NCBI GenBank assembly: GCA_947561585.1
Contig: CANNZV010000504.1
Location: 124,001 to 188,000 of the forward strand
Direction of reading: 5' to 3'
DNA: 64,000 nucleotides
Origin: Caprella mutica
Lineage: Eukaryota > Arthropoda > Malacostraca > Amphipoda > Caprellidae
Below, one piece after another: positions 7,846 to 39,700 of the stretch; position 1 is the first letter of the stretch, and the number at the start of each line of letters is the position of its first letter. A program made the translations under genes and the position numbers. The notes beneath the pieces are model-generated. The model saw only the letters and a list, made by a program, of their open reading frames with translations. It made no database searches and had not been told where the DNA came from.

Positions 7846-7921
7846 GCAATGGCTACCCTCAGGACCTGTGGATCGAGCTGTGGGCAATGGCTACCCTCAG
7901 GACCTCTGGATCGAGCTCTGA
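7846..7921. repeat. Direct repeat, 2 x 38 bp
   Basis: GCAATGGCTACCCTCAGGAC is repeated 38 bp apart, with one or two differences over the unit. It lies exactly at the junction between the I-like ORF2 and the other retroelement fragment. Confidence 0.85.
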
Positions 7922-12857: not shown

Positions 12858-15800
12858 TCAAAGGATATTTAATCTTCCAGAAGTTTGTAGGAATATCAAA
12901 AATATCCTATGAATTTTCCTATTCACATTCTCTTCAAAGTTTCCTCCCAAGAGAATGTTTTTCATTGATAGGTCTACATTGACATTCGATAACATATCTG
13001 CCATTACTCTTCTTTGGTCTGTAAATTTTCTGCATGTCATCAGGAAATGTTCAATTGTATCAGATTGATTACAATACTCACAGAGATCAGAAATTGACAT
13101 CTCAAATCTATGCATGTGTGCTTTCACTCCTGCATGACCAATTCTGATTCTTGAGGATGCAGTCTCTAGACATCTAGATTTGAGACTAAGCCAAGGTCTG
13201 AACAAAGGTTTTTCGACAATATTGCTAAGGAAGTTACCTGTTTGACTGTGGATGACTCTAGTCTTCCATATTTTTGTCCAAAACATCATAATGTGAGATT
13301 TTAATGTGATCATACTTTCTTCATAATTCAGTGAGCTCAGGACTGAGTGCATGTTTTGATGACCTAGATTAGCCCCTCTGTCAGCCACTTCATTGCCTTT
13401 GATACCAGAGTGTGCACATACCCATTGCAGTTTGACTGAACTCATAAGCTCCTTCATAGTGTTTTGTATTTTATACACTATATGTTTGTATTTGGGATCT
13501 ACTTGATTTCTAATTAGATGCAATGCACTTTTGGAGTCAGTTGAAATCAAGTATCTAGTTCCTATCAAATGATTAGATTTTATCCACTCCAATGCTTTGT
13601 CAATAGCAAAGAGCTCTGCTCCTAATACAGTGTGGTTAGGGTTTAATTTCCATGTTGTTACAGAATTTGATTGTTCCACATACAGAGCAGCTGCTGTTGA
13701 TCCATCACTTAGTTTTGATCCATCTGTATATAACTCATGCACATCAGGAAATAATGCTCTTCTATACTCTTGAAACATGTTATTTGTCACATTATTGTTA
13801 TTTTGCATCACTTCTTTGTCAAATAGGTCAATATATATATTTTCAGTGATATCAACCATTGGTGACACTGGACAAATATAAGGTGTTGATACTCTTTTTA
13901 TTGGTTTCAGATCTATTGTACTAAATATTGCCATTGCCCTCCTATGAAATATACTAGTGTTATTTTCATCTCTTGGCAAAACACCTACTTCATGTGCAAT
14001 GTCAATCCTATTATTTGTTTGTGGGGAATATATCATTTTATAATACCACTTCATAAATAGATATTTGAAGCGAATGTCAATAGGCATAATGTATCCTTCT
14101 ATCTCCATTGAGAGTTTTGGCGATGTCTTTCTTGCTCCCAGAATGATACGAAGGGCATTATTTTGAATCACTTCTAATTTTTGATATATTCCTCTAGAAA
14201 ACTCAGGAAATAGTGAACAGCAATATTCTAACTTACTTCGGATGAAGCTGACATATACTCTTCTTAGTAGGTTTCTTGACGCACCCCACTTATTTGAAGC
14301 GATTGATCTCATTGTGCATATTCTGCGAGAGCATTCAGTTTTCAAGTAAGTTGTATGTTCTTTGAAGAGTAATTTAGGAGAGTCAAATATGATGCCTAGG
14401 ACTCTTTGTTTCTTTGTTTGGGAAATTTGTTGACCAGCTAGTTGAAGTTTTATATCTGGTATTATCCTTTTTCTTGTGAAGACTTGGAAGCAGCATTTGT
14501 TTGCATTCATAATAAATTTATTTGTTACCATCCAAGTAAATAGCTCATCTAAATAGAGTTGCATTTCACGTTCAGCTAGTTCCAAGGAAGGGGATCTACA
14601 TACTAAAGTTATGTCATCAGCATATGACACCATCTTGACAGTTGAAGACTTAGGAAGGTCACTCAGCATTATATTAAAGAGTAATGGGGAGAGCACTGCA
14701 CCTTGTGGAAGACCTCTACTGAGAATTTTTTCAGTTGATAAATCCTTTCCAACTCTGACTTTAACAGTTCTACCTTTCAAGTAGTCTTTCAACCAATAGA
14801 GCATGTATGGTTCGATCCCAATTAGCTGAAGTTTTGTAATTAGGCCAGCATGCCAAACACAATCATATGCACTTTCAAGATCTATGTAGCATACGACACA
14901 ATATTCTTTGGCTTCAAGACTAGTGTTTATCTGGTTCTTCAGAATTGCAAGACAATCTAATGTGCAACGACCTCTTCTAAATCCACTCTGGCTTGCCTCA
15001 AATATACCTTTCTCAATTTCAATTATGTGTTCAAGTCTTCTCTTAATGATTCGTTCCATTAACTTTCCAACACAGGACAGCATGGTGATTGGTCTGTAGG
15101 AGGAAGCCAGAGAAGAGTCTTTTCCAGGTTTCATAATGGGGCAAATGATACCAGCTTTCCATTCACTTGGAACACTACTTGTCATAAGGCTTATATTGAA
15201 GAGGTATTGGACTTCACTCATTATATTTGTGGGCACTTTTTTCAAGAATATGTTACAAATTTCATCCACACCTGGTGATGTATTTTTTATTCTTTTTGTG
15301 ACTTCTTGAACTTCTCTCAAAGAAATAGCTGGGAATGGTACAGAGGATAAGTCAGCACTTTCAGTTTCCCTTAATTGCAGATCATTGTTATCAATGACTC
15401 TAGCAAAATGGTTCATCAGAATGTTTGCCTTGTCAGAGTCTGATAAATTTGGTGACCCAACTGGGATGTTGAAGCAAGAGTGTTTGCCATTTATACTCTT
15501 TATTGTTTTCCATACTTTTGCAGAGGGAGTATTACTCTGCAAAGTTGATGTAAAGTCTTTCCATGATTGTTTCTTCTTCTTTTGGGTTGTGCGTTTCACT
15601 ATAGCTTGACACCTCTTGAAGTTAATAATATTTTCTACAGTAGGGTGGGACATCATTTTGTTTCTTGCTTTATTTCTATTTGTCACAGACACTTTGCATT
15701 CACCATCCCACCAAGGAGATGTCCTTTTATATGATTTATGTCCTTTTGTTTTTGGAATATATTGGTTAGACACATGTTTTATTTTATTGGTTAGATAATT

Positions 15801-16643
15801 GTTATAAGTGGTCACATCAGAGGGGAAAACTATACTCGATTCATTTACCTCACTTAGTGCGAGTGACCAGTTTTTCCAGTCTGCTTCTCCTAATTTCCAT
15901 CTGGGTACAGTTTTCATTTCACTTTTGATAATTGGGAATCCAAATACTATTTCTATTGGGAAATGATCACTTCCCAGATCAATACCTCTAGAGAAATCAG
16001 ATACATTACATAGGTTATAGGATGCTAGACACAGATCCAAACATGAGGATGAACCAGTTCTAATGTCATAATAAGTTTGGATGGAATACTCATTCACTAA
16101 AGAAATAGGATATTTCTCAAGGATGACTTCTAAACTTTTACCAGTAGTATTTTGTCTACCTCTTTCATCCCAGAGAGGTGAGTGTGCGTTAAAGTCACCC
16201 AATAAGATACCTCTGTTTCCAATATACTGGATATAATGATCTAGTTCTTGTGTAGATATGTTTTTATTGGGATTGTATATATTGACTATTCTAATGTTTC
16301 CTATATTATCAGCTATTTCAACTATTTGTAGTTCAAGATGACCATCTTGAAAGGGTATGAAAGGGATCTTCTTAAAAGAAATATCTTCACGAATTAAAAA
16401 CGCCAAACCACCCCCATTTCCAACTCTATGGCTCCAAATTGCCGTGTAACCATGAAATTTTGGTTCCCTAATTTTAACAAAGGTTTCACAGAGGCATACA
16501 ACATCTGGTTTTTTCTCAAATATATAAAGTTTCAATTCCTGTAACTTATTGGATAATGAGTTACAGTTAAATTGTATCAAATTTAAATGATTCTCAGAAC
16601 CTTTATTTCTCTTTAACTTATTTATATAGCCATTAGAGTTCAT
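12858..16643 (-). CDS. I-like retrotransposon ORF2: endonuclease, reverse transcriptase, RNase H
   Basis: 1,261 residues, intact. Domains in order: endonuclease (1-230; LIQFNCNSLSNK, GDFNAHSPLWDERG, SDHFPIE), reverse transcriptase (about 450-720; CPIMKPGKDSSLASSYRPI, LPQGAVLSPLLFNIM, catalytic SYADDITLV), RNase H (about 950-1090; LYTDGSKLSDG, LGAELFAIDKAL, ISTDSKSAL, AHSGIKGNEVAD), then a CEYC..IEHFLMTC zinc-like tail near the end. An RNase H inside ORF2 together with a three-knuckle gag places it in the I group rather than Jockey. Its ATG overlaps the ORF1 stop (ATGA). The frame is complete, so this copy may have been active until ORF1 was split by a DNA element. Confidence 0.95.
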   Translation of the reverse strand: MNSNGYINKLKRNKGSENHLNLIQFNCNSLSNKLQELKLYIFEKKPDVVCLCETFVKIREPKFHGYTAIWSHRVGNGGGLAFLIREDISFKKIPFIPFQDGHLELQIVEIADNIGNIRIVNIYNPNKNISTQELDHYIQYIGNRGILLGDFNAHSPLWDERGRQNTTGKSLEVILEKYPISLVNEYSIQTYYDIRTGSSSCLDLCLASYNLCNVSDFSRGIDLGSDHFPIEIVFGFPIIKSEMKTVPRWKLGEADWKNWSLALSEVNESSIVFPSDVTTYNNYLTNKIKHVSNQYIPKTKGHKSYKRTSPWWDGECKVSVTNRNKARNKMMSHPTVENIINFKRCQAIVKRTTQKKKKQSWKDFTSTLQSNTPSAKVWKTIKSINGKHSCFNIPVGSPNLSDSDKANILMNHFARVIDNNDLQLRETESADLSSVPFPAISLREVQEVTKRIKNTSPGVDEICNIFLKKVPTNIMSEVQYLFNISLMTSSVPSEWKAGIICPIMKPGKDSSLASSYRPITMLSCVGKLMERIIKRRLEHIIEIEKGIFEASQSGFRRGRCTLDCLAILKNQINTSLEAKEYCVVCYIDLESAYDCVWHAGLITKLQLIGIEPYMLYWLKDYLKGRTVKVRVGKDLSTEKILSRGLPQGAVLSPLLFNIMLSDLPKSSTVKMVSYADDITLVCRSPSLELAEREMQLYLDELFTWMVTNKFIMNANKCCFQVFTRKRIIPDIKLQLAGQQISQTKKQRVLGIIFDSPKLLFKEHTTYLKTECSRRICTMRSIASNKWGASRNLLRRVYVSFIRSKLEYCCSLFPEFSRGIYQKLEVIQNNALRIILGARKTSPKLSMEIEGYIMPIDIRFKYLFMKWYYKMIYSPQTNNRIDIAHEVGVLPRDENNTSIFHRRAMAIFSTIDLKPIKRVSTPYICPVSPMVDITENIYIDLFDKEVMQNNNNVTNNMFQEYRRALFPDVHELYTDGSKLSDGSTAAALYVEQSNSVTTWKLNPNHTVLGAELFAIDKALEWIKSNHLIGTRYLISTDSKSALHLIRNQVDPKYKHIVYKIQNTMKELMSSVKLQWVCAHSGIKGNEVADRGANLGHQNMHSVLSSLNYEESMITLKSHIMMFWTKIWKTRVIHSQTGNFLSNIVEKPLFRPWLSLKSRCLETASSRIRIGHAGVKAHMHRFEMSISDLCEYCNQSDTIEHFLMTCRKFTDQRRVMADMLSNVNVDLSMKNILLGGNFEENVNRKIHRIFLIFLQTSGRLNIL

Positions 16644-18159
16644 TTAACTTGTTTTTTCTTTGATCTGTCCAGAGAACTTTTTCTTTGTTCAGTTTCACTC
16701 TCACTTTTCTTTCTTTTACTGTTTTTCTTTTTTTTCTTTTTCTTGTTCCAATTAGATACACTTTTATTTTCTACATCCGATGACAAAACTCCAGCATCAC
16801 TGTCCAATGAACTCATTTCTTCATTTCTAGTGGTATTTGTTTCTGTAGGTTTTTTGTTAATCACTTGACTCTGATTAGGGAAAACTTTTTGTGCTACAGC
16901 ATTGATGACAGAACATAAGTCCTGACTCAAATTTATTTGTGTCAAAACTTCACTTAGCAGAGTTCTAATGTTGAGGAAGAAGTCATTCATGATTTTTTCT
17001 ACCATTGACTTGCATTCTCTTAGTACACTATTTTGGACTTGTGTCGTTTCAGGTGTCTTTTCTCCAAAGGTCTCCTGTACCTTCTCCCTTGTGTGGATCC
17101 CATTAACTTTTGTACTTTTTGCTGCCACACTACTATAGGTGCAGGGCCCAGGGGCCTCAAAGCTAGTTCCGGGTGTCTGAACATCTACAGTGACATTTTG
17201 CGGCAATCTGTTAGGTTTTGTTTTGTTGCCAAGGTTCTCATCTACTATTTTCTTAGCTTCTTGGAAGGTTTTACCTTGTTTTGTCAGGCTAGAAATTTGT
17301 TGGGATTTCTTATTCATGATACAATCTCTAGAACTGGCAATGTGTTCCATTCCACAATTTGCACATCTAGGAGAGTTTTGCCTGTCACAGTCTTCTTTAG
17401 GATGGTCCTCGCCACATATTAAGCATCTCCTTCTAGCTGTGCAGCCTCCTGACAGATGACCAAAACGTTGGCATCGGAAACAACGCATTGGTTGCTGGTT
17501 GAATTCTCTTACTGTAAAGGATATATACCCAATTTTGATTTTACCCGGTAAAGATTCTCCAGAAAAATCAATTCTAATTGCGGATGAATCCTCCTTTCTG
17601 CCACTGCTGAATTTGTAAAGTCGTTTAAGACTAATGATTTTACTAGGGGATACAATCATCTCTTGCAACTCTTCCATAGTAATGTCACTATCTACTGGTC
17701 CAATGACTCCAGAACAATGTTTTTCAACATTGTTTGGTTCTGAGGGTTTATATCCTAATACATTGCATCTCCCCATTATCTTAATGCTCAGTAATTTATC
17801 TAAGTGTTCTCTTGTTGGATTTTCTAACTCTACTGCCACTATGTTGCGTCGTCTATTTATCCTAACATCTTTTATTTCACAGTCCAAAGGGATTTCCGAA
17901 AAGAATTTTCCAATCAAAATTGGATTGTGAGTAAGAATGGCAGATCTACAGTTATCAGCTTGTCGATACACAATTGTATTTAGCAAGCCCTGATTTTCTA
18001 ATGTTGCATTGGTAGGGAATCTGGCATAATGGCTATAATTAATTCGACGTCTTTGATGAATGCTGGTGTTTTGACTACTATTACCTTCAGGTTCAGTTTG
18101 TTCCTGTGTTTCAGGGAGTGGGTATGTTTCTGGTATGACTATCTTATCATTCAGGTCTA
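16640..18159 (-). CDS. I-like retrotransposon ORF1 (gag), main part, split by hAT-like element
   Basis: Open from the insertion border to the stop at 16640. Three zinc knuckles (CFRCQRFGHLSGGC, CLICGEDHPKEDC, CANCGMEHIASSRDC) and a Lys-rich C-terminus as in the other copy. The frame upstream of the first knuckle continues without a stop to the insertion site at 18159, past the apparent start. The missing N-terminus lies at 21528-21630. It carries IPETYPLPETQ, the same proline motif as the other gag. Confidence 0.88.
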
Positions 18160-21100
18160 CCAGTCTGTATTTGGTGCATGGAACTCCACCGACATGCCTT
18201 ATATAGGAATAATTCCACCGAAAAAGTCACTATATTTTTGCCAATTCCACCGCCATGAGCAGGAAAATTAAGTTGTGCCTCCGCCACTGTATGTTAAATT
18301 ACAAAATTCCACCGACTAGTTAGGAAGAAATCTTTCAGGACAATTCAAACTAGTAATAAAAGTTCAAATCAGTGTAATTATTACTTATTACAGTTTAAAT
18401 CATAGTATTTTATTTAATTATCAAAATAGAGTAGCTACCTATTACTACCAAGCTAACTAAGCTGTCTAAGTATACTGTATAGCCAGCCTAAGCCAGGTAC
18501 CTAATATCATTTGCCAGTTTGCCACCAAATTCTAAAATTCTTTTTCTTCTTATCTTAAGAATCAGTAGAAAATCAGACAGACTGGTACCATAATATTGCA
18601 AGCTTGTTTTTGTTTACCTTAATATTTTTCTGATAACATCTTCTACAGTTTTCATCATAGTATTTTATTTATTTAATGCAAGATAGTACCTAGGTATACA
18701 GAATGATAATATCAATTATCATACCTAGTTTGCTACCACATTTCCAGTAACCATTAGGTACCGTAAAACTATTCTTTTTCTCTTTTGAATCAAAAGAAAA
18801 CCAGACCATTGAAGTCTCACAGAAACCCTGAATAGCATCTTTGGTTAAAGAATAAAAACAAAAGAAATAGGCTACCTAATAATAATTATGATATTGCTAG
18901 TTTCTTTCTTAGGAATGTATAAGACCGAAGATGTGAAACTGATTGATAATTCATAAGTTAGCTACCCTAGTACCTACGTACAATCTTTCAGTTTAATATA
19001 TTTACTCAAAATACCTAATTGAATGAACAGTAATGTTTAAACTAGTGCTTTATAATTTATCAAATTCAAATCTAAATTTTCCGATCGTATTATTTCTTAA
19101 ATATTAGGCTAATTGTAAATACTTAAAAACATGTACAAGTCCAGACAATTGTCCCATACATGTCTAGAACCGAAAATATTAAATTTAAACAATTAGCTGT
19201 ACTTATAATAGAAAGGTATTTTGTGTTAATTAGGTATACTGTATATTTTGATTTACCATTATTCTTAATACTCTGCTTATATTCATTGAATAGCTATAAC
19301 TTTTTCTATATTTAACCAGTTCAATACATGTTCAAGTGTTAAGAATATCACGTCATCCTGACAGCCATTTTGTTTATTAACTTATGTATGTGAACTTCTG
19401 ATTTAAATATTTTAATCATACGTTTTTAAAACTTTATAAATTCTTACTTACCTAATAATGATTATGTAATTTCTATTTAAATTGTTATCCATGATACTAA
19501 ATAAAGAGTTAAAATAAGTAGGTAAATAGGTTTATATTTCTGTGATCGAAAATGTGGAACCGTACAATAATTCAAAGTACCTACTTCCAGTGATTTACAC
19601 TATTACCTTGCCACGATTTAAATACGCTGTACATTAATAAACTTTATTTAATGTGCAGTGTAATTAAACCTTGGGAATAGCGTAAATCACTGGAAGTAGG
19701 TAGTTTGAATTATTGTACGCTTCCACATTTTCGATCATATGGATAGTACCAATCAAAATAATGAGTTAAAATAGGTAAGTATATATATAGTTTATTTTTC
19801 TCTGATCGAAAATGTGGAAGCGTACAATAATTCAAACTACCTACTTCCAGTGATTTACGCTATTCCCAAGGTTTAATTACACTGTACATTAATAAAGTTT
19901 ATTAATGTACAGCGTATTTAAATCGTGGGAAGGGAGTAGCGTAAATCACTGGAAGTAGGTACTTTGAATTATTGTACGGTTCCACATTTTCGATCACAGA
20001 AATATAAACCTATTTACCTACTTATTTTAACTCTTTATTTAGTATCATGGATAACAATTTAAATAGAAATTACATAATCATTATTAGGTAAGTAGGAAAT
20101 TATATAGTTATAAAACGTATGATTAAACTATTTAAAACAGAAGTTCACGTACCATCACGTACATAAGTTAATAAACTAGAGTATTGGGTACCAGTCTACC
20201 TAGGGTAAGTTTCAAGTTCCTAGGGTAAGTTTCAAGTTATCAGACGTTTCCATATTTCCGACCACACAAATATTGTATAATTTACTAACTACTTTAACTG
20301 GTTATTTAATTATAGTAAGCCTATATTAAAATAACCATTTGAATTGTTAGTTAAATTCATTAACTTTTTCTTATATCTGAGGTAAGTTCTAAGTTATCGT
20401 ACGATAACACATTTTCGGCCCTTGAATAGAAATCCTATACATAGGAGAACTTGGTAACTTACGAATTAGCGGTCAATTTCACATCTTCGGTCATATGTAA
20501 ATGTAGATATGAGAAAACACGATAGGTAAAATAACTATTTTTTTAAAATAGGTAGTGTTACCTATTGCGATATTAAACATGTAGTTAGATATAATAATTA
20601 TTTATCAGACAAGTAACGAACTGGGCAATTGGGGTCACTGGTTGGGGGTTATGTGTTAGCATGCAATGATGGAATCGTAACATTTTATGTTACTTAAAAC
20701 ATGAATAATCTTCAAGCTTGTTTGGTATTTACAATAATCTTTTATTCTGATATTGTGCAGCCATCTAATTAAGAGGTACTACAGTTTCCATCGTATTATT
20801 TTATTTATTTAATGTAAGATAGTACCTAGGTAACTGATATCATTAGGCATCAAATTTTTTTTTAAGAAAACTGTAGAAACTCTTATCAGAAAAATATTAA
20901 GGAAAACAAAAAACAAGCTTGCAAAATTATTCATGTTTTAGTTAGCTCGAAATATTATGGTACCTGTCTGTCTGATTTTCTACTGATTCTTAAGATAAGA
21001 AGAAAAAGAATTTAAAATTTGTGGCAAATTATACCTATAGGTATAATATATATAGGTAGTATCTAGTAGGTACTATATTACAGAAAGTATCTTATACTGC

Positions 21101-21519
21101 TCACTCTAATCTAAAAGGCCACCATTGTCTTGATATAGGCCACCATAATATTAGATGTGGGTACTAGTTACTACCTATGTATTTATCGAAAGTTTAGTAA
21201 TCAAAAGTTTACAATGTTGAGGGGAGGGTGGGGTGGATTACTTTGAGTTTTAATATAAGTACATATATATAGTTGTTCACACAGTTTCGACTCTCAGACA
21301 AACAGTAATGCTCTGGCATCCATTGAGGGAGGATGTATGATGTTATCATGTTGCCACCACCGCCATACTAGATACGATTGTTCTCAGATTTCCCACCGAC
21401 AAAAGGTCTTAGCAGTTATCTTGAAACAAATATTCCACCGACTTTGTTGGAATATTAGGCCCATCAACCTCAAAATTCCACCGACAAGTCGGTGGAATTT
21501 ACCACTAAATACAGACTGG
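18160..21519. mobile_element. 3,360 bp hAT-like non-autonomous element with 8 bp target duplication
   Basis: Termini are 17 bp inverted repeats, CCAGTCTGTATTTGGTG and (inverted right end) CCAGTCTGTATTTAGTG. It is flanked on both sides by CAGGTCTA (18152-18159 and 21520-21527), a perfect 8 bp duplication. Subterminal regions contain repeated TTCCACCGAC motifs (18,190-18,315 and 21,395-21,490) that could be transposase-binding sites. No transposase frame is visible; most of the interior is a palindrome. Confidence 0.92.
18541..21010. repeat. Giant imperfect palindrome inside the hAT-like element
   Basis: Left-arm blocks at 18,544-18,655 and 19,450-19,750 recur inverted at 19,800-20,075 and 20,850-21,008, about a centre near 19,770. 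For example, CTTATCTTAAGAATCAGTAG on the left meets CTACTGATTCTTAAGATAAG on the right. Each inner half (19,545-19,740 and 19,800-19,995) is itself a foldback around GATCGAAAATGTGGAA arms, so palindromes are nested. Some arm segments differ by indels. Confidence 0.85.
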
Positions 21520-21527
21520 CAGGTCTA

Positions 21528-21630
21528 TTACATCAAACTGGTTATTGTTGAATATATCAGAATCATTGTCCATTATTTCAGTCTCATTTTGAGTTTCAGG
21601 CAGAGGGCAAGTCTCAGGAATTTCCTCCAT
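21528..21630 (-). CDS. N-terminal part of the split ORF1 (gag)
   Basis: ATG at 21630 opens MEEIPETCPLPETQ and runs in frame to the target duplication CAGGTCTA. If the 3,360 bp element and one duplication copy are ignored, this frame continues exactly into the main part at 18159, so the insertion is the only lesion visible in the gene. Confidence 0.82.
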
Positions 21631-22792
21631 AGTTTTGGTTTTCAGGTTTGTATTTTTACAACTATTGAATGCATATGGAATATCTCTTGTAAAATGTGGA
21701 GCAGAATTGTCCAGTTTTAATCTTAATATTTATACAGTAATGAAATAGGTAGACTATCTAGAATCTAGTGCCTAATGGTTTAATGATACAATCTACCTAC
21801 CTATTCCAGACTATTTGAAATAGCTGTATAATATTCTATTGTTCTATAGTCCTACCTACCTTTAATTTAACAGTGTTGAAATGCAACTAATAGCTATGTC
21901 TAACTAACTACCTACCTACCTGGTTTGAGTCTCTGATACCGTCAGGCACTCCCCCGACTTAGAGCCGGTAGAGCTAAGGTAAGGTGTCACAACACTCAGG
22001 AGCTTTCACTTGTAACAATTAAACAGCTTGATAAAAGTATATAGGTACTGTAATAATCGCTACAAAGGAGTTTTAAGGACTTTTATTCAATGGCTAAAGC
22101 ATTAGATTTAAAGAACCTTATCAAGTGAAAGCACAAACGAGACTCCATATAGTATTCAAAGTCTAATAATGTTGGAGCACACGTCACAATTGTAAGCCGG
22201 AACTTTAGACAAATTTCATATAAAAAGAGAAGCTGCCTCGGTTCTCGAAGAACGCAAATTTCAGTATCGTTAATTTCAACTGTTAATTGACCAATCAGAG
22301 TCTAGTGCTGATCGGAACACATGACGTCATAAATATCTAGACAAATAACAGAGCTGTATATTGGTTACGTCATCAGTACCGAGAGAAAAATTAAATATAA
22401 TACAGTGTAGATAATCCTATAGTTCAATATACAGTAACTATATTTTCTAAAATAAGGAAAATATAAAATTGGCATTAAAATGTATAGTTTAAATAGAAGT
22501 CAGTTTACAATAATGATTACAATAACTGAACCAAATCAATAGAATGAAGTAATATTCTTCGTATTATGAGCTTATGTGGATTTTTTTATAATCTAAGATT
22601 TGAAAGAATCTTTGAATCTTAGATTTCTAAAATGTGACATTCAGTAGAAAGTTCATGAGTTATTTTATATAATAGTAATGCTTATTTACTATTTGAAAAT
22701 AACTTTTCCAAGAAACTGAAGGGTTGGAAGAAGGAAAAATAATACATTTATGCTTAACATTAGTATTTACTTATTTCAAACTTATAAAGCGA
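21631..22792. other. 5' region of the split retrotransposon and flank of the recoded genes
   Basis: Up to about 22.0 kb is probably retrotransposon 5' untranslated sequence rich in TACCTACC. From there to 22792 I see no standard-code gene. A perfect 11 bp stem, AATCTAAGATT and AATCTTAGATT (22590-22625), lies downstream of the second recoded gene and could act as a 3' signal. Confidence 0.45.
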
Positions 22793-24163
22793 TCAGCATT
22801 AATTTTTTTAACGTCTCCAGTAATCATATACATTATCATTCTAAGTACGACACTGGCACTGTTATTAAAGAGATTATCTCTATAAATAACGTTTTATGAG
22901 CATATATCCTATTATGAAAATTGTAATGATACATAATGCCAAGTTCAAATAGCTCATAATTAAAGTGATTGTTTTAATTTTAACACTTCTTAAAATCTAA
23001 GGTAATTATACAATATTGCGTCTTGCTTCTTCTATTTGGTTTGCTATCTGTTAATGTTCTCCATTAGAACGTTTTACAACAAAATCGTACAATTTTTTCT
23101 CCTGTTCTTCGACTTGTGGTTCTATTCGTCCAGAGTTGTTGATATACCTTGAAAAAGAATTCAGTTCATCAAATTACAGTTTCATAAGATTTACTAAGGC
23201 CAAATTTTCATGGAAGTCTTGAATTTAAATCAAATTATTGTGAAAAATATGATTCACCCTAACTGTAAATTGATTCATATCAGTCGATTGCGCCTGTAAA
23301 TCAGCATACAACTTTTTGAGTTTTTCTTCTCCAATATCTCTCGCATAATCAATGTTTTCTTGAAGTCTTTAATGTAAACGTTTTATATTCTATTCTTAAA
23401 TCTTTATCTGTTGTTAATGATTGGCTAGTAGTTTTATCATGGTTTCGATTACATCTTCTTTACTAATTGAATTGGTTTAACTAAGAGTTTCAACATTAAT
23501 AATCTAATTTTATTAATGTCGATTGTAATCTTTCAACCGACTGTGTTCTATCTTTTAAAGAGTTTTGCGAACTCGTAGAATATTTTTGTGCAACTCCAGT
23601 TGCCTAATTGGTCCAAGAAATCTGTCAACATTGGCCTTAATCCACGAGCTGATGATGGGCTTCGTGAGAACATTATTCATATCATTCCAATTCTGCACGA
23701 TAAATGGAACAAGTTTTCTGTACCGATTCGAAGATTCTGATATGAAGCGTTATATCAAGTATGGATCATATCTATTGAGTGTCATTGCTTCCTTGTTTTA
23801 CTGCTGTGTCTCTTTCAGAACTTTTTTTGCCATCATGCAACCTTCCAATGGCGCATGGAATTGTTTTTCAATGACTGTTTCTATTCTGCGTTTATTTTCT
23901 TTCAAATTAATCACAGCTTCTTTAATTTCTCTCATCATTAAATCCATAATAATTTCATAACTTTCATTTCTTGAGAAGTTGTTCAATTCTTGAATAAGCT
24001 TATATTCAAACTCCTTTTCATTTTTAGATGTTTCGTATGCATTTTTTCCATACTAAATTAAATCATATCCAGACTATTATTTTGAATCAATAGTTGCCGA
24101 ACAATAATTCGAATATAATAGGAGCATGAGTGTTATAAATAAGAAGTCTTTCTTTAGCCACAT
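22793..24163 (-). CDS. Recoded gene B: type I membrane protein read with TAA/TAG as Gln
   Basis: From ATG at 24163 one frame runs 457 codons to TGA at 22795-22793. It contains 19 TAA and 7 TAG but no other TGA and no frame break. Read with UAA/UAG as Gln it is a coherent 456-residue protein: signal peptide (DFLFITLMLLLYSNYCSA, residues 6-23), a long Gln/Glu/Lys-rich helical ectodomain, one membrane span after SYLNLALCIITIFIIGYML (residues 404-422), and a short cytoplasmic tail with YWRR. Many of the codons in question fall in Gln-rich clusters, for example beside CAACAG. With the standard code the longest open piece is 62 codons. I do not recognise the family. It lies 234 bp downstream of its paralogue on the same strand. 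A decayed pseudogene would be expected to show frameshifts and TGA. Confidence 0.8.
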
Positions 24164-24397
24164 TATTAAAAAGGAATAAAAGTTATATGAAATTTTGATC
24201 TGGTGTATTTCTTCAATTTAAAATTATGTTTTGCTATCAATTTATTTCCGATAAGTAGTATAGATACAAACATCTAAATTTGGAATATTCTTATTTTGAC
24301 ATAAGAATCTATTTAAATATTTAACTGAAAGAGAAAGATTGATAAATGGTTAAAATCAAATTAGGTATACATTTTCAGATAATTACTGAATACCTTT

Positions 24398-25768
24398 TCA
24401 ACAGTTAACATTATATCCTCTCGTATTCTGTCTTCTCCAATGACCCATCTTCTCTTACTTTGTCACCATTCTTTTTCTCTACTTATCTCTCTTCTGTTTA
24501 TTTATCAAGATGCTTCGACTAACCAATAAACAAATTTTGATAATCATGCCAAAAATGAAGAGCAATATCAGTCCCAAGTTAAGGTAAGAGAGTGCCATGG
24601 TAGGCGTTCTAACCGTCACAAGTCTTAGCAGCTCAGGTATTGGGTCCACAGTCATTCTAGAATCCTCCAGCAAGTTAGCTATCTTATTGTGGTTTTCGTA
24701 AGTTTCTCTCATATCAACTTATCTGGCTTTTGACTCCATCTCTGCAAAGTGATTCTTAACTTTATCTTTTCTATCGGAATAGCTTTTGTGAATTGATAAC
24801 TCTAATTCTGACAACTTCATAAGATTCTTCATAGTCTACTCGCCGTAAATTTTCCTTAGTTAAGACTATGCTTGTTAAAGTAATAGTTTGATGATCTGGA
24901 ATTATTACTAATTCTTGCCATCGAGATATTGCAAATCATCTTTGAATCCTTCTAATTCACTTTTCATTTGTCGGTGTACCCTTCCCTTAGCAGAATCTAT
25001 CATTTTCTGGACTATATCTATCCCCTTCCACGCTTTCTACTTTGCTATCAACTTTTCAAGAAAACTTATGAGTTCAGTTCTTGTAACTCCGTCTGAATTC
25101 GCCTGTCTAACCAGACTTACCTGATCTGTTACAAAGGTTCTTTATTCTACTCCATATAAAACCTTTACCGTCTGTTTAAAACCAGAGTTTATGATTTCAA
25201 GCTCTAATCTTTTAATTCTTGGTAACAGTGCCTAGAAGTAAGTTTTCGAGAGCTGTTGCAATCGATTCAATATGACATTCTTATTGAGAGACATGAGACT
25301 ACGAGTTAACCTTACTACAGCCGTGGAATAACCCTCTCTTGATTATCGTATTTGATCCTCTATTACGCCATTGAACTCAGTTTCACCCGAAATCCCAACA
25401 TTGCCGTATACTCGATCCACTTCATCCAAGTCACTTCGAACTGCAAGAAGATCTTCAAGAGGTTTCTCAAAAATATTTGGCCACACAATTGTTTCTAATG
25501 TTCTTTAATGTTCATTTAACGTTAGAACACCAATTTCTACAGCTCGTGTCACATTATCCATTATCATTTCTTCTGTAGATTGATTGAATAGTCTAGTGGT
25601 ATTGTAATGCGTGATTTCACTCAATACGGTCTCTTCAAGATTAGATTCTTGCGTTCCTTCACTGGTTTCGTCTGCAATGACGTCTCTTGTGGATCTTTAC
25701 AGAGTTGATGCCTATTAACAATAGAATGCAATGATGAAGGCGAGTATTTTACAATCAAAGAGCATCAT
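24398..25768 (-). CDS. Recoded gene A: type I membrane protein read with TAA/TAG as Gln
   Basis: From ATGATG at 25768 the frame runs 457 codons to TGA at 24400-24398. It contains 11 TAA and 7 TAG, no internal TGA and no frameshift. It is exactly as long as gene B. Residues 5-17 (DCKILAFIIAFYC) form a signal peptide, NTT and NQS are possible glycosylation sites, the ectodomain is mostly charged helix, SYLNLGLILLFIFGMIIKIC (394-413) is the membrane span, and the basic tail ends HWRRQN..C. Paralogy to gene B is clear in IMD..(x)n..NL/TL..(x)n..ETVI/ETIV, in P.I..LEL, in IAN.(x)n.P..LR.V, and in the SYLNL and WRRQ blocks. Its Q in WRRQ is CAG where gene B has TAA. No family is recognised, so the function is unknown; cell-surface location is inferred. 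Confidence 0.8.
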
Positions 25769-25846
25769 CTTGACTTTTTGGTGATTATTTTATTGAATTT
25801 GAGATCAATTTCTGATTTGTAGAATCAAGTAGAATGGATACAATTC

Positions 25847-25854
25847 TTTATATA
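25847..25854 (-). promoter_or_regulatory. TATA box upstream of recoded gene A
   Basis: TATATAAA on the minus strand (within CTTTTATATATAAAGAATTG), 79 bp before the ATG. A start about 25-30 bp downstream would give a roughly 50 nt leader. In such AT-rich DNA a chance match is possible. Confidence 0.45.
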
Positions 25855-28800
25855 TAAAAGAAAAAGGTATTTAAATGAAAAAATCACAACACGGGTTCAT
25901 TTTTATTTTTCAATAATTCGTATTCATTAATATACTCACATTAACAACAATAGATCGAATTTTACATGTAAAAAATTGACGAAAAGCATAGGTATGTTGG
26001 ATAATTGATACAATCAAAATATATATTGAATTTATCAACAAGTTTCAGTTAAATATTAAGCAATGAAGTTTAATAGCTATTCAATGAACTCGAATTAAGG
26101 GGATTATTTTTAGATTTTATTTATTATATTCTAATTATGCACAATTTCTATCAGCACCTTTTGTTGTTTTTGAGAAACTAACCCGTAAAGAGTGTCTGAA
26201 TATCCTAATTATTATTCCCTTGATATCAAATGCATTCATTAAATTGAAATTAAATTAAAATGGCATAATGAATATGAGTGAACTAATTCAAAATCTATCT
26301 GTAAAAGTGACATTCTCTTAAAAACTATATTGAAAATCTACTTGTGAAATCTTAATTAATAATTTAACTATGTACTGTGTAATAATTAGATAATTATTAG
26401 AATTAGAAAATAATAAGAAAATTAATATCAAATTATAATCAATCGCAACCTATCGACTAATTTAGTAGTACGTAATTTAGAATAGTGATATAGATTACAA
26501 TTATTGCCAATTGGTCATAAAATATTTACTTTTACCTAATTTCTAAAAGGCGAATTATTTCCTGATGTAGAGAATTGAAATTTATTTTAACATTTGAGGT
26601 TAGACTTAAAGAAACTATAATAGCTTTTAACCAAAAATTTGATTTTTACTTTGTTGTCATATTTTCGTTATTTCCCCTAAAAATATATATTGAGTAATGG
26701 GTTAAGTTTGGAGTTAGTGGACAGTTCTACTTTGTCGATCGTGTAAAAAAAACATTTATAATAATAATTTTCCTTACATGATTGAAAATGTTGAACCGTC
26801 CAATAACTTGGAACTTGCCCTAGTTTATTTGTTGAATATACATTTTTAATTTTTAGCTACATACCTAACTTACAGTTGTATTTCATACATTGTTCTCAAT
26901 AGAATGTGGATTTGAAATGATTATTTTAATATATTAACAAATTCCAAACCGAAAAATGTAGCATAAATTTAATGGAATTTTTTCAAAAAGTGAAGAGGTC
27001 ATAAATTCCTATTTGAAATTGTGAAAATAAATTATTGTTTAGGAACAAAAAATAATGTAATTAGGGTGAATATTCATTTATAAAATACTAATTAAAAAAC
27101 AAACCTATTTGAATTATACAAATTATATATAAATTGAAAGAAAATTTACATCTTGCATGTTGATTCATTGAACACTATATATAGATATAGTTTTTTCATC
27201 TTTATATGTGTATATAATATACTAAACACAAAGAAGAGGGTTCTCCACGATTATATAAAAGGATACACCACACATAGACCTAAATGTTATGGCAGTAATT
27301 ATCTTGCAAAGAGATATCAATAGATCATTACATGCAGACCCAGCTTTAAGTAGACCCCGCTGTTATAACAGGACGACTTAAAGCGGAGTTGCCTCCGAGC
27401 TTACTTACATCAGTTGTACCGGAAAACTATTTTTAAACAATTTTATTTACATTGAAGGAATCAGACAAAATATGGTACATAGTATTAGTGTACCATGCAA
27501 ACGTTCTTTGATTTTCGTTAATAGAAAACAAAAAGATTGGAGTAACAATGCTAAACTTAAAGCGGGGTGTGCCTGTATTACTTTTCCCTGAATATGAAAA
27601 CGAAAAAAAAAATCTACAAAAACAAAATGGAGATGAAATCAATAGTTATTATTAAAACAAAGATGTATTTTGAATGATCACAATGACATATAATGTATAC
27701 TGGCAGTGATAGCAACTATCGAGAAATAGTTACATGCAATTCAATAAATGCATTAACATACTTAGAAGCATGTCAATTTAATGCCCCATCATATTGTAAT
27801 TATTATGAGTCTTTATTAATTATATACCAGTAGATAATAGTTGTAGATGAGTGTAATATATGTAAGTTAATCTATTACTAAAATTTCACTCCAACCTGAC
27901 ATGTGTCCATTGCTAAATTTGGTCCGAATTTTACTTCACTAATTAGGCTAGTAACTAATTTCCTACCTACAGTATGTCTATTGTGTCCTGTGGATAGAAC
28001 TAATTTAAATACCTTCAATCATACTACTCTAAGCACGTCAGATTTTCACACATATATATAAATATATAGGTTCATTTGCTCAATAAAGAAGCCTCTCAAT
28101 ATAATTAATCTAGAAGAGTTAGAAATCGTGAAAGTGCTAGAAAGAATAACCAGAAAACGTGATGGAATGAAGAGGAAATAATCCATGTTTCAAAGTATGG
28201 CAGTGAGAACCAATGCATCGGCTAGACAATTGAATTTAATGTATTAATTTTTATGTAGGGTTGCGACAATATGCGTTTAAAATCATAGATCCTGGAAATA
28301 TTATAGACTGGTTGAATTAAAGACTATTGAATCTTTCTACACAAGCGGTATATAGTATTCGATACCATCGTATTTCGTTTCGTCTATGATATTCTTAAGA
28401 TCTATGATGTTAAGTGCATATTGTCACAACCCTGTTTCTATGTATTGGTATGCTGTACTATGGAACATGGAAAAAGAAGAGCAGTTGATGCTCATAGGAA
28501 GTGTTTCAGAAGTGTCTCTACTACACACGTAAATCTAACCTATGTACACTATGTCTCATTATCAATATAAGGCGTAACAGCTGTTGAATCTTTACGATAC
28601 CAATTACTAATTACTCGTGTGTACAGTGAAATGGAAAAGAACTAAAAGGCAAAATCTACGATCTGACGAGAGTTCTGGAAGTTCTGTCTATTTGCTACAA
28701 AGAAAAAGATTGTACCTATTTAGTGTAGAGGTTACTAGAAATATGATAACTCATGCGATATACATACATATTTTCAGAAGTCGCTATTTTGAATACCTTA

Positions 28801-30340
28801 GAATAAATATTACATACATAATAATGAAAAACAAAAGATAAAAACAATAAATATCACATACAATATAAAATTTCACAACGGTGCAAACTTAAAATCTTGG
28901 GATGGAGGTCAACCATCTTGGTAACATTAGAACGTGATAGATCAAATATAGAAAATTTACATATAGAATATATATATCAGCTAATCAAAGGTACAAATTT
29001 TAGGAGTTTCATCAATTTTACGATAAATGAACACTACCGAAGTCGAAGGTCCGAATTTTACGACAATTCGTCTAAATTTTTTGGTATATCAGAGATCCCT
29101 CTTCGTTGAAAGTTCCTGTGGGAATAAAGATAAATTAGTGGACAGGAATGACGGTAGGATTTTATCCAATATCACTCAAACTCAGGGCACAAATAAAGCG
29201 AGTATATCAAAGGAATACAGTGCGACATATTGCCAGTAAAGCGAGACACAACACAGTGAAACATGAAAAGAAAACACACTTAGTAGGTGCAATGAACTAA
29301 AGTGATGCAGTTTCTTGCTAAACTCTTCGATGTGATTAAGAAACCATTGATACCAGAAAGTAAGGGAGATTTTGCTAAAAAGTAAATACTGTCTACAGAC
29401 TTCATATATACCCAGAGAGAAAGTTATGGTAAGGCCTTGGACTATTTTAATGAGAATCATAACTTTCTCTTGGAATAATATTATCATATTAATTAAAAGA
29501 GGTAACATTTCATAATTTTTATCTTAAAAAGAGAAATTTAACGCGAATTAAAATCCTGACGGATAATTGCAATATGTCTGATAAGTACATATATCTAACT
29601 CTAACCCTTCCAACATATTACTTATCTAATTAATAACTCGTACTAATATAAGAGTTCATATTTTTGTGAGAATTCCAGCGTTTTCACATCATATCTTTTT
29701 CGTTGCACATATACGTCCTATGCAATATTAATAATAAAATTATTTCGAAATATACCTTGTTAGGTAAAAGATTCGGTAACTCTTATTTTCTAACGGATAT
29801 ATTGAGATGAATTATCACCTCATATTTATAATTTCTGTAAATTTCCATATTTTCGAACATTAAAATTAATTTCTAAAAACTAACAGTCAGAGTAACCGTA
29901 AATTTCTGAGAAAATAATAGTTCATGACTTTATTCTTTTGATGTATGGATTAAATGGTTTGTTTAATTGAATGAAAAAAATAAATACTGAATAAAATAAA
30001 ATTAAATAAAGATAGATAGTGTTTGTTAATCTTTTTCTGGTAAAGTGTAGCGTTGTCAGCCAATGAAATATATATATAATATATATTCTAAATATTGGCA
30101 CTATGGTGGACACGTTAAAGTTTCAAATATGATGAAAATGAAGAGAGTCACATTAATATATCCAATTTTTAACAGAAACTTGATAAATTAAATCAACGTA
30201 TGAAGGAATCTATGTAGTTAAAATAAGCGAAAATAAGAACATGAAAAGAAACTACCACAACCAAAGATATAAATCTTTCACGTGAAATTTATTTAATTCA
30301 GGGAGTTCTACCTACTACATGTCGCACACTCGAAACTGTA
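25855..30340. other. Intergenic region, no gene recognised
   Basis: AT-rich throughout. Its right part presumably contains the 3' untranslated region of the L1-like gene. I looked for a further recoded copy by its SYLNL and WRRQ blocks and found none. Short plus-strand frames around 28.6-29.2 kb show no recognisable motif. Confidence 0.45.
26699..26821. mobile_element. Foldback MITE, GGGTAAGTT family
   Basis: GGGTTAAGTTTGGAGTTAGT at the left and inverted CCAATAACTTGGAACTTGCCC at the right, around GATTGAAAATGTTGAACCG. It shows that this side of the recoded genes is ordinary host DNA. Confidence 0.7.
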
Positions 30341-30602
30341 AAGGGCCGTACACACGTAGGGTTTCTTAAGTCTTTCAACCAGACTTTTTGCTAAGCTCCT
30401 CCGACTTTTTTCCACGAGAATATAAGAAAAAGATATAATTCTTATTTATTTCAGTTCGTATCCATGATACCTGTAGGTATCATGGATACTAACTGAAATA
30501 AACAATAATTATATCGTTTTTCTTATATTCTCTTGGAAAAAGTAGGAGCTTAGAAAAAAGTCTGGTGGAAAGACTTTAAAAACCATGCGTGTGTACAGCT
30601 CT
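30341..30602. mobile_element. Foldback element, ACACACGTAGGG family (copy 1)
   Basis: Two arms, AAGGGCCGTACACACGTAGG and the inverted GCGTGTGTACAGCTC, with GTCTTTCAACCAGACTTTTT and its mirror inside. The centre is GATACCTGTAGGTATC. The whole unit can fold into one hairpin. It lies just 3' of the last L1-like exon. Confidence 0.85.
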
Positions 30603-30722
30603 CTAGAATCTAATATTTTCATTTATATTACAAAGCAGTTCATTTGTTGAAGCTATTTTTTACCGAGGGCTGGAGCAAAATAAATGTTGATGCCGATTGT
30701 TGAAGAGATTTGGTCAGCAACT

Positions 30723-33700: not shown

Positions 33701-36700
33701 ATATTTGACTATATAAAGTTAATATTTTTCTGCTTTTAAATGATGGTAAAGAGTAAGCAAATAGTATTTTTAGCTATAATTTATTTCTCTGACTTTTGTC
33801 CAAAATGACTATTCAATACAAAACAGGTAAAGAAACTATAGAAGAAAATCTATTGCGAAGCTTCTACAGCAAATGACATATAATTCAAACATCAACTACT
33901 TGCACATTAACGAAGGCTACAAGACACAAACGACAGGTTTCGAAGGTTGAAGCTTAAGCAATTAAAAAAAAAACACTTCCAAATAGGTTTCAAAGTGGCA
34001 CATACAAATCAGATTAAACATTAACGATTTTTAAAGAAGATCAGGAATGACGGACAGATAAAATACACGATGACGAAATCTCTAATAAAGAGAACTGTAC
34101 GAAAGAAAAGTTCCAAGACTCATGTAGCGAAAACGAGGAACGAATAAAAAGTAAAAGACAATTCAAGAGACTCAGTAATATCGGTTAAAACTCTTCATGA
34201 GATGAATCTTGGTACTCTAAATTTATAGGTTCATGATACATAACGTATAGATTCGAAGATTGTTGTCACTGAAGAGGTTTCACCTTAAAGCTTCTCATAG
34301 CTGGGCAGTTTGCTACAGACATTTCAGTTCATTTTGGCAACAATAAAAGGAGAAAGAAAGGATAAGATTGAGTGAAGTCATACTTACACTTGATACCAAG
34401 ACTGTCTATCAAAGTTTATAGCATTCCTTTTGATAGCGTGGAAAGGAGTTAGGTATTGATGATGTGCATCCTCTACACATCATAACTCCTATCGAATACA
34501 ATAACTCTAACGCGGGATAGAGAATTCATGGCTACGGTGAAAAAAAATTACATAAACTAAATGTCAGATTTTTTACTTAAAAGATTGCAGAGTTTCATAG
34601 TTTGGAGTTTAGACTAACAATTAACTAAATATTTTAATGTGCAGACTATAAGTAGTGTTTGTAATTACCTTTTCAAATCACTAGTTATATATTGGAAGTA
34701 CTGTGCACAGATATTTAGTTTTACTAGTTACTAGGCTATAATCTATCACTATTGGGCGCCATTTTCAATATTTACTCATGACTAACTAGTGCTTTCATCG
34801 TAATAAAATTAAAGGTTCTGACGAACACAATTTATTTTCTTTCTTATAGTGAATATACCGTACATTGTGTGCAAACAGTAACCCAGTTACCTAATCGAAT
34901 GAAACCTGCCCAATTTCCTCGTTCTGACAACTCTGGAGTAAAAATGACTGTTATAATATTTTAATATACGTAATTTACCAATGATAATTTGTAATGAAAA
35001 AGATGAAGAAGCTAATTAATATCTTTGCAGCTTATCAAACGTGTAGAAAACAGAGTTTCGAAGAGAATATAAGCTTTGACATATAAATGTGCGTACAGAA
35101 TATTGAGAAAAGCTGAGCGATATGAATTATGATATTATTAGTGCATTAAGTATTGAACATTTAGAAAAATGAATAAGTGACGGATTAAAACATTGAATAA
35201 CTGTCGGATTATCTGCATGATTCTCGCTTATTAAATTTCCTTTAACTTTTTCAAATTTGAAGGAAAATGTTAGCACGCTTGAAAAAAAAAGTGAAAATAA
35301 AAGATGCAGGATTATGAGAGGTGATGCAGCACTAAATATGAGAGGTGATGCAGCGCTAAATATGAGAGGTGATGCAGCGCTAAATATGAGAGGTGATGCA
35401 GCGCTAAATATGAGAGGTGATGCAGCGCTAAATATGAGAGGTGAGGCAGCGCTAAATATGAGAGGTGAGGCAGCGCTAAATATGAGAGGTGATGCAGCGC
35501 TAAATATGAGAGGTGATGCAGCGCTAAATATGAGAGGTGATGCAGCGCTAAATATGAGCGGTGATGCAGCGCTAAATATGAGAGGTGAGGCAGCGCTAAA
35601 TATGAGAGGTGATGCAGCGCTAAATATGAGAGGTGATGCAGCGCTAAATATGAGAGGTGATGCAGCGCTAAATATGAGAGGCGAGGCAGCGCTAAATATG
35701 AGAGGTGATGCAGCGCTAAATATGAGAGGTGAGGCAGCGCTAAATATGAGAGGTGATGCAGCGCTAAATATGAGAGGTGAGGCAGCGCTAAATATGAGAG
35801 GTGATGCAGCGCTAAATATGAGAGGTGATGCAGCGCTAAATATGAGAGGTGATGCAGCGCTAAATATGAGAGGTGATGCAGCGCTAAATATGAGAGGTGA
35901 TGCAGCGCTAAATATGAGAGGTGAGGCAGCGCTAAATATGAGAGGTGATGCAGCGCTAAATATGAGAGGTGATGCAGCGCTAAATATGAGAGGTGATGCA
36001 GCGCTAAATATGAGAGGCGAGGCAGCGCTAAATATGAGAGGTGATGCAGCGCTAAATATGAGAGGTGATGCAGCGCTAAATATGAGAGGTGAGGCAGCGC
36101 TAAATATGAGAGGTGATGCAGCGCTAAATATGAGAGGTGAGGCAGCGCTAAATATGAGAGGTGATGCAGCGCTAAATATGAGAGGTGAGGCAGCGCTAAA
36201 TATGAGAGGTGATGCAGCGCTAAATATGAGAGGTGATGCAGCGCTAAATATGAGAGGTGATGCAGCGCTAAATATGAGAGGTGATGCAGCGCTAAATATG
36301 AGAGGTGAGGCAGCGCTAAATATGAGAGGTGATGCAGCGCTAAATATGAGAGGTGATGCAGCGCTAAATATGAGAGGTGAGGCAGCGCTAAATATGAGAG
36401 GTGATGCAGCGCTAAATATGAGAGGTGATGCAGCGCTAAATATGAGAGGTGATGCAGCGCTAAATATGAGAGGTGATGCAGCGCTAAATATGAGAGGTGA
36501 GGCAGCGCTAAATATGAGAGGTGAGGCAGCGCTAAATATGAGAGGTGAGGCAGCGCTAAATATGAGAGGTGATGCAGCGCTAAATATGAGAGGTGATGCA
36601 GCGCTAAATATGAGAGGTGATGCAGCGCTAAATATGAGAGGCGAGGCAGCGCTAAATATGAGAGGTGATGCAGCGCTAAATATGAGAGGTGAGGCAGCGC

Positions 36701-39700
36701 TAAATATGAGAGGTGAGGCAGCGCTAAATATGAGAGGTGATGCAGCGCTAAATATGAGAGGTGAGGCAGCGCTAAATATGAGAGGTGAGGCAGCGCTAAA
36801 TATGAGAGGTGATGCAGCGCTAAATATGAGAGGTGAGGCAGCGCTAAATATGAGAGGTGATGCAGCGCTAAATATGAGAGGTGATGCAGCGCTAAATATG
36901 AGAGGTGATACAGCGCTAAATATGAGAGGTGATGCAGCGCTAAGTACGGGAGGTGATGCAGCGCTAAATATGAGAGGTGATGCAGCGCTAAATATGAGAG
37001 GTGATGCAGCGCTAAATATGAGAGGTGAGGCAGCGCTAAATATGAGAGGTGATGCAGCGCTAAATATGAGAGGTGATGCAGCGCTAAATATGAGAGGTGA
37101 GGCAGCGCTAAATATGAGAGGTGATGCAGCGCTAAGTATGAGAGGTGATGCAGCGCTAAGTATGAGAGGTGATGCAGCGCTAAGTACGGGAGGTGATGCA
37201 GCGCTAAATATGAGAGGTGATGCAGCGCTAAGTATGAGAGGTGATGCAGCGCTAAATATGAGAGGTGATGCAGCGCTAAGTATGAGAGGTGATGCAGCGC
37301 TAAGTATGAGAGGTGATGCAGCGCTAAGTATGAGAGGTGATGCAGCGCTAAATATGAGAGGTGATGCAGCGCTAAATATGAGAGGTGATGCAGCGCTAAA
37401 TATGAGAGGTGATGCAGCGCTAAATATGAGAGGTGATGCAGCGCTAAATATGAGAGGTGATGCAGAATTATGATAGGTTGGTTAGTTCTCATAACTATTA
37501 CAATAATTATCACTGTTCACAGTTCTCATGTCACTGTTCACAGTTGGTACTCACTGTCGTTGAGAACTTGCTGTCACTGGCTCATCGTCTAATCCGGCTT
37601 CCAGGTCGTCAGCGGCTGCCGCAGCCATCATAGGTTTCTGGGCCGAAGGTTCGTAGTCTTCGTACATTGAAGCGCGCAATTCGGCAATTCGGGATAATCT
37701 GGAACATCATATATTTGAAATACACTTTTAAGTTGTATACTGACAGCTCCTATTCATTATATAAAAACTAAAATGATTGTTTACTCTATTGAAAATCTGT
37801 AAAATAAGCACCTAATAAAAAAGAAAATCGAACAGAAATAATAAATAGTTATATCTATAGTATAATTTTCAAGTTGTTAGTTAGTTGTAATCCATGAATG
37901 ACATACCTGTGATTATATGCCCACATTGAGAAGCAAATCACAAGCATCATAGTGATGGCTACTACCAGGGCAATGATGAACCAAGTCATGTCGGTGGGGT
38001 CGAAGTAGCCCTTTCCTATACCACTCTTCATGTCACCACTCTTGTCAGAGGGGTCTTCCATGGCTGAGAACAGTTACAAAGGTTACACTCAACATTGTCA
38101 GTTATACTAAAGGGCCGTACACACGTAGGTTTTTTAAATCTTTCCACCAGACTTTTTGCTAAGCTCCTCCTACTTTTTCCACAAGAATATAAGAAAAAAC
38201 GATGTAATTATTATTTGGTATCCATGATACCTGCAGGTTTCATGGATACCAACTGAAATAAATAATTATTACATCGTTTTTTCCTATTGTATCGTGGTAA
38301 AAGTAGGAGGAGCTTAACAAAAAGTCTGGTGGAAAGACTTAAAAAACCTACGTGTGTACGGCCCTTCATACTTAGTTTCAACTGACAGTCTTTCAAATTA
38401 TGAAGTTAAACATCCTTAGTTTTCGGGGAAAAATGAGTGTTAGGTTAAGTTTCGAATTATCTAAAGGTTTCACATTTACGATTATAATAGAAAGAAATAA
38501 CGAGTTAAAAAATTAAATCCTATGCTTTTTTTTATAAAATAAAAAGTGTGGAACCGGTCGATAATTCGGAACTTATCCTAAAAGAGTAAATATTTATATT
38601 TTAATTTGGTATTCGTGAATAATTTGAAGGAAGTCAGTTGAAGCTAAAAATGTGAAAACAGTCCTAGAAGTAATGATTTCAGACTACAAAATTTGAAATC
38701 GATATATATGATATCTTCACATCTAAAGAAAATTGTATGCAGTTTAATCTACAAACAGAAGTTTTTCAAAAACTACAGGCACCATAGATTTAATTTTAGG
38801 CAGGGTATGTTTCTGAGTTATCAAACTGTTCCATATTTTCGATCACGAAGAAAAGAAATATGATAATTATAATAAAAGTTGAATGATAATTATTAAATAA
38901 TTCATTTCTTACATGATCGAAAACGTGGAACTAACCGTAACTCTGAGGTTGCCCTATATTTTAGTTTTCTTTAGATCTGATGAATTAATTTCAATATTTT
39001 TTAAAACATGCTTTATACCGTAAGAATGTTTTAGATCTTACAGTACGCAACCCAGATGAGTTAAGGTGGGGCCATGGGCAATTAAGTGAACTTAATCTTC
39101 TATGGCCCCACCATAACCATCCCTGGGAATATAGAGGAGATTCTGTGCATTTTCTACTTTACAGTTGGATGGTGAGTGAGTGAGGATATTTGTTACAAAG
39201 GCATACACAACAGGACTATTTAGCTATCAAACAGGATATCATTAAACAGAATTAAATTAGGCAAATAAAGAGTTGCAATTAAATGTTAATCAAATAGGTA
39301 TATAGGGTTGCTATTTAATTAAACAATGAATGAATGAATAAATGAATGGACAAATAAAGTAAAAATTCAATGAGTACTAAATTAATGATGGTTACCAATC
39401 TCTACTCATGATTAACACCAAGATAGGGGGAGACTTTCAACAGAGGTAATAATTTAAGATGATGCCAACCACATGAATTTATATGTAATCTAATTTTATT
39501 TACTTTGAAACAAGTAAAAGATCGTTCATGTAGCAATTCACCGAATTATTACTCTCAATACTCTGAAGATGGGAATGAGGATGGATTAACTACAAATGGG
39601 TGGAATGGAAATGAGAATCTTAGAAAATAATTATTCTAACAATTTACAGAGGTTCTTATAGTGTAGCCTTAATTATCCAACCTGATTTCGAAGGGAAATT

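Follow-up and report, generated by a model that had tools for sequence, protein, structure and literature searches.

Two adjacent paralogous genes with TAA and TAG as putative sense codons in an animal contig, possibly inserted from a protist

Two adjacent minus-strand frames in the window, the 64,000-nucleotide stretch of animal contig that we analyzed, are supported as coding sequence in which TAA and TAG (together TAR) would be sense codons and TGA the stop. The two genes are, on comparison of their predicted proteins, paralogues, a relationship that is new here. We find it somewhat more probable than all other explanations combined that the pair was inserted recently, that its source is a protist translating UAA and UAG (UAR) as Gln, and that it is silent in the animal.

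Two paralogous frames with in-frame TAA and TAG

Gene 1 (24398..25768) and gene 2 (22793..24163), its paralogue, lie on the minus strand and comprise 457 codons each, the terminal TGA included, of which 18 and 26, respectively, are in-frame TAA or TAG. Translation with NCBI table 6 yields 456 residues in each case. Neither gene contains an internal TGA, both terminate at TGA (n = 2 genes), and no frameshift occurs in the 912 codons of the pair. The TAR codons of gene 1 include a run of three, TAG-TAA-TAA, at codons 287–289. Pooled over the two genes, the Gln-type codons comprise 30 TAA, 14 TAG, 17 CAA, and 17 CAG, with TAR making up 44 of the 78. Upon retranslation, the coordinates, frame lengths, TAR counts, Gln-codon tally, and lack of internal TGA given in an initial annotation of this DNA were reproduced exactly.

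Frame length alone is weak evidence of coding here, and homology the decisive kind. Random 64-kb sequences (n = 60) matching the dinucleotide make-up of the flanks had a longest TGA-free frame of 430 codons on average, and one of the 60 contained two frames of 456 codons or more. The AT-rich window abounds in long TGA-free frames, and we rejected frame length as proof of coding. The chance of finding zero TGA in 912 codons, calculated from the TGA frequency of the flanks, is 4e-8. Three-base periodicity reaches 27.7 and 22.3 in gene 1 and gene 2, compared to a window median of 7.9 and to values of 3.0–10.5 for eight other long code-6 frames. A 493-aa code-6 frame at 19765-21246 has a periodicity of 7.8 and no homology; within this frame, which looks non-coding, we also observed a tandem duplication of ~240 bp (19499-19996, 85% identical).

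The proteins of gene 1 and gene 2 share 24% identity over 433 aa (E = 7e-19). With every TAR codon masked as X, the alignment still extends over 361 codons with a score of 203, whereas scores in a codon-shuffle control (n = 300) averaged 39 and did not exceed 60. A self-comparison of the window by blastn (word 9, E 1e-6) returned no DNA match between the two genes. As judged from these alignments, the likeness is kept in protein and lost in DNA, and it is confined to the frame in which TAR must be sense. From TAR-masked protein homology in combination with the lack of DNA similarity, we infer that the gene family diverged over a long period with TAA and TAG as sense codons. TAR stands in both genes in only 1 to 4 alignment columns, the number varying with the residue assumed; since these columns number at most four, the TAR sites appear to have turned over, with codons probably gained and lost at many sites under protein conservation. 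The common C-terminal part consists of SYLNL, the membrane span, and a tail carrying WRRQ and a last Cys, and the Q of WRRQ is encoded by TAA in gene 2 and by a CAA or CAG (CAR) codon in gene 1. Among 1377 code-6 stretches of at least 25 aa in the window, we found no third family member, all other stretches giving E values no better than 0.14 against either protein or the profile.

The dN/dS comparison envisaged in the initial annotation gave no usable value because synonymous sites are saturated: in the codon model, omega collapsed to 0 and the branch length grew without bound, although omega = 1 was beaten (2dlnL 63; 65 without TAR columns). Codon-position identity between the genes is 38/57/32%. 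We dropped this measure as a signal of selection, as 200 shuffled-codon alignments give the same pattern over ~56 codons.

These data bear directly on whether the frames are decayed animal genes, that is, two old standard-code paralogues in which CAA and CAG have mutated to TAA and TAG. The TAR share of Gln-type codons is near the 63–68% expected from host non-coding DNA, as such decay would produce, and neutral drift gives the same share. Decay is difficult to reconcile with frames that lack both TGA and frameshifts and retain ten CGA codons; the CAR/TAR counts of 34/44 contrast with CGA/TGA counts of 10/0 (Fisher p = 0.001). Moreover, TAR-masked protein similarity without DNA similarity cannot arise by this route. 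We regard decay as extremely improbable, in agreement with the initial annotation, which had argued that random decay would produce TGA and indels.

The identity of the residue at TAR is less sharply defined. The initial annotation had proposed Gln; the sense use of TAA and TAG is borne out, in that the frames behave as coding with TGA as stop, while Gln does not stand out from other residues in the masked alignments. Local alignment scores with different residues placed at TAR are 269 for Lys, 260 for Gln, 259 for Asn, 254 for His, 253 for Glu, 235 for Tyr, and 209 for Leu. In the masked local alignment, the partners of 27 one-sided TAR codons favor Asn, Glu, and then Gln. TAR falls opposite CAR 4–6 times (1.6 expected) when TAR is aligned as Glu (4 times) or Gln, and 2 times when masked; it falls opposite GAA or GAG 3 times (3.3 expected) whether aligned as Glu, as Gln, or masked. 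Taken over these alignments, a polar residue fits best. Glutamine is a plausible assignment by analogy, chosen because nuclear codes that reassign UAR most often read it as Gln (PMC5304391).

Predicted proteins and intergenic signals

The gene products are predicted to be 456-residue, single-span, mostly helical membrane proteins. One membrane span is predicted in each, at residues ~388–424 and ~394–428, and the hydrophobic N-terminus exceeds the threshold of 1.4 in the second protein only. AlphaFold models have mean pLDDT values of 40.1 and 45.5, a quality insufficient for fold searching. The architecture proposed initially, a signal peptide, a helical ectodomain, and one span in each protein, is thus retained in part: the span holds for both proteins and the signal for that of gene 2, and the helical ectodomain depends on very low-confidence models.

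As far as sequence searches reveal, the pair defines a membrane-protein family without relatives in the collections searched. Using gene 1 or the pair as the query, we found no relatives at E ≤ 1 in 5.8 billion proteins, in a search that requires common 5-residue words and overlooks remote or fragmented relatives. Pfam, PHROGs, NCBIfam, and the PDB gave no significant matches, and no significant relatives were detected in viral contigs or in one scan of prokaryote contigs. A DNA pattern coding for WRRQ was discarded, as it returned chance matches only.

The spacer between the genes (24164..24397) measures 234 bp with a GC content of 0.209; both the 3′ end of gene 1 and the gene 2 promoter would fall within it. 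An AATAAA on the minus strand (24241..24246) is the sole A[AT]TAAA hexamer within 400 bp downstream of gene 1, and none is present within 400 bp downstream of gene 2. A minus-strand TATATA (25851..25856) precedes the start of gene 1 by 88 bp; no such element was found within 160 bp of gene 2. Both the AATAAA and the TATATA may be chance occurrences in AT-rich DNA.

The animal contig and the AT-rich island

A full-length LINE ORF of 1261 aa (12858..16643, minus strand) uses the standard code and aligns over 97–100% of its length with proteins of similar size. Together with the ORF at 7897-9177, it contains 59 Gln codons, all of which are CAA or CAG and none TAR, and on the strength of this element we rejected a code change of the whole genome. 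Among the best 120 of 182 LINE matches, the only animals named are the amphipods Hirondellea gigas and Trinorchestia longiramus; because these are the sole animals among the matches listed, the host is likely an arthropod. The contig is that of an animal, and the initial description of it as an insect contig was not confirmed, two amphipods being the only animals named among the matches listed. The two ORFs belong to two related two-ORF LINEs (7897-11006 and 12858-17986, minus strand), the second with a full-length ORF2, which are ~63–66% identical in DNA where aligned and jockey-like by best matches. A further piece at 21508-21729 resembles the first ORF of the LINE by eye only and has no Pfam match.

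A gene with Ig and FN3 domains occupies the minus strand from ~37.8 to ~63.7 kb. Ig or FN3 Pfam matches were obtained in 7 of the 10 pieces scanned, with E values up to 0.004 and two matches above the curated cut-off, and PDB matches include Roundabout, titin, receptor phosphatases, contactins, and Drosophila neuroglian. A FIGQY-like tail was not found for this gene. Nine of its pieces contain 21 CAR codons; these pieces were picked as standard-code frames, a choice that in part accounts for their lack of TAR. Accordingly, the earlier statement that the standard code is used by all other genes here is well founded for the LINE and less so for the Ig/FN3 gene. Two minus-strand frames within the span of this gene have no Pfam match, namely, an Asp-rich frame of 867 aa with DxDGDGDxD-like repeats (49267-51870) and an acidic frame of 1131 aa (40519-43914). 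Outside it, a 24-bp minisatellite of ~90 copies (35313-37465) is free of standard-code stops over 730 codons on both strands.

We considered whether the pair could be native animal genes with a private code, in which suppressor tRNAs (or RNA editing) in some cell type would read UAA and UAG as Gln while UGA stops translation. The two frames are undamaged, their synonymous codons have the composition of host non-coding DNA, their dinucleotide signature is host-like, and host repeats lie on both sides of the pair, all of which would be expected of resident genes. Decoding them would nevertheless demand near-complete suppression at each of 26 TAR codons in one message and at three consecutive ones in the other. 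The readthrough context motif, CARYYA, follows none of the 44 TAR codons, and C occupies the +4 position after 6 of the 44; the many stops per gene and the lack of CARYYA led us to reject programmed stop codon readthrough and also weigh against native decoding. The standard-code LINE indicates that the genome at large reads the standard code, and the window contains no tRNA genes. Regulated readthrough of a single stop codon is known in Drosophila, at ~18–30% in one reporter (PMC13170385), but an animal gene-specific UAR = Gln code was not found in open-licence literature, a body that excludes the bioRxiv collection and subscription papers. We judge native decoding unlikely, and retain it at that level because the frames are undamaged and their composition is host-like.

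The pair resides in an AT-rich island of ~4.8 kb, whose change points (22385..27226) mark the proposed extent of an insert. GC content in the non-coding parts of the island is 0.225 on the 3′ side, 0.209 in the spacer, and 0.231 on the 5′ side, and the 1132 bp upstream of gene 1 have a GC content of 0.242, below all 1161 overlapping windows of the same size outside the island. The island is suggestive only as a sign of insertion because, of 38 control scans in host DNA, 3 contained a GC step at least as large as that at the left boundary and 2 a step at least as large as that at the right. In dinucleotide signature the block does not look foreign (0.098), as 25% of the host windows (n = 200) lie at least as far from the host mean. 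We found no target-site duplication, with no exact direct repeat of at least 12 bases flanking the block, and no poly(A) tail, the only A/T run of at least 8 inside the proposed block being 8 A at 26745.

Finally, the assembler may have spliced a piece of a contaminating protist genome into the animal contig. Code-changed protists do contaminate arthropod data (PMC5304391), and the block has an AT content of its own. An assembly artifact would require two false joins ~5 kb apart, in a window that contains no Ns and carries copies of host repeats on both sides of the pair. On the left, the nearest stretch in common with distant parts of the window is one of 44 bp (20453..20496) that recurs at ~52.1 and 54.3 kb. 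On the right, the nearest host repeat is a palindromic dispersed repeat (30336..30609) with relatives of the same family at ~3.4, 38.1, 55.2, and 57.7 kb. From ~20.5 to ~30.3 kb, no stretch is in common with distant window parts, and no shared repeat vouches for these 10 kb. Overall, we consider a false join quite improbable. The copies of the palindromic repeat (3392-3536, 30336-30609, 38104-38369, 55173-55439, and 57736-57964) are MITE-like and ~80–91% identical.

Proposed protist insertion and comparison with known codes

We favor protist insertion over a code change in the animal because of the AT-rich island, the standard-code LINE, the lack of further family members in the window, and the 26 stops that native decoding would have to pass in a single message. 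The donor would be a ciliate, a hexamitin diplomonad, or an oxymonad, in which both mRNAs would be decoded by tRNA-Gln species carrying UUA and CUA anticodons, together with a release factor specific for UGA. A block of ~5 kb is predicted to have entered the animal chromosome recently. By the standard code, the first in-frame TAR is codon 18 in gene 1 and codon 29 in gene 2, at which animal ribosomes would halt; because of these stops, both genes are predicted to be silent passengers in the animal, intact only through recent arrival. With no host selection, damage-free frames need an age below ~0.6–1.9% divergence, depending on the indel rate assumed. Our searches of the collections above yielded no relative that would point to the donor.

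If the insertion reading is correct, the pair would represent protist-to-animal gene transfer in which the changed code would both reveal the direction of transfer and silence the genes, providing a rare clean test of whether the genetic code impedes such transfer. If instead the genes are native, one animal nucleus would use two genetic codes by cell type, with UAA and UAG meaning glutamine in the messages of its own membrane-protein family and stop elsewhere. Reading animal assemblies with table 6 would constitute a simple new screen.

Among known systems, programmed stop codon readthrough in animals such as Drosophila resembles the present case in that a ribosome would pass a stop codon, and differs from it in that here there are 18 and 26 stops per gene, three of them consecutive, without CARYYA context. 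A closer likeness is to the hexamitin diplomonads Spironucleus salmonicida and Hexamita. The Gln codon shares of the pair (TAA/TAG/CAA/CAG 38/18/22/22%) are close to the 42/20/18/21% given for weakly expressed S. salmonicida genes in PMC1805757 (chi-square 1.2, p = 0.76), and for Gln-type codons alone the flanking triplets do not fit (p = 0.005). Intronless genes and short spacers are described as diplomonad traits in PMC11787283, which the intronless pair and its short spacer fit, and a GC content of ~33% is likewise shared. In contrast to these likenesses, no sequence relative was found in the protein searches, and codons other than the Gln type are fit slightly better by host non-coding triplets or plain 30–32% GC (−863.9 to −867.8) than by the Spironucleus table (−875.3).

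The UAR = Gln nuclear code (NCBI table 6) is found in some ciliates, hexamitin diplomonads, oxymonads, and some ulvophyte algae, and code-changed protists have previously been met in insect sequence data (PMC5304391 for both). The present case departs from that code's usual setting in that two genes stand in an animal contig alongside a standard-code LINE. It shares with this code TAA and TAG that appear to be sense codons, TGA as the stop, and TAA as the commonest Gln-type codon.
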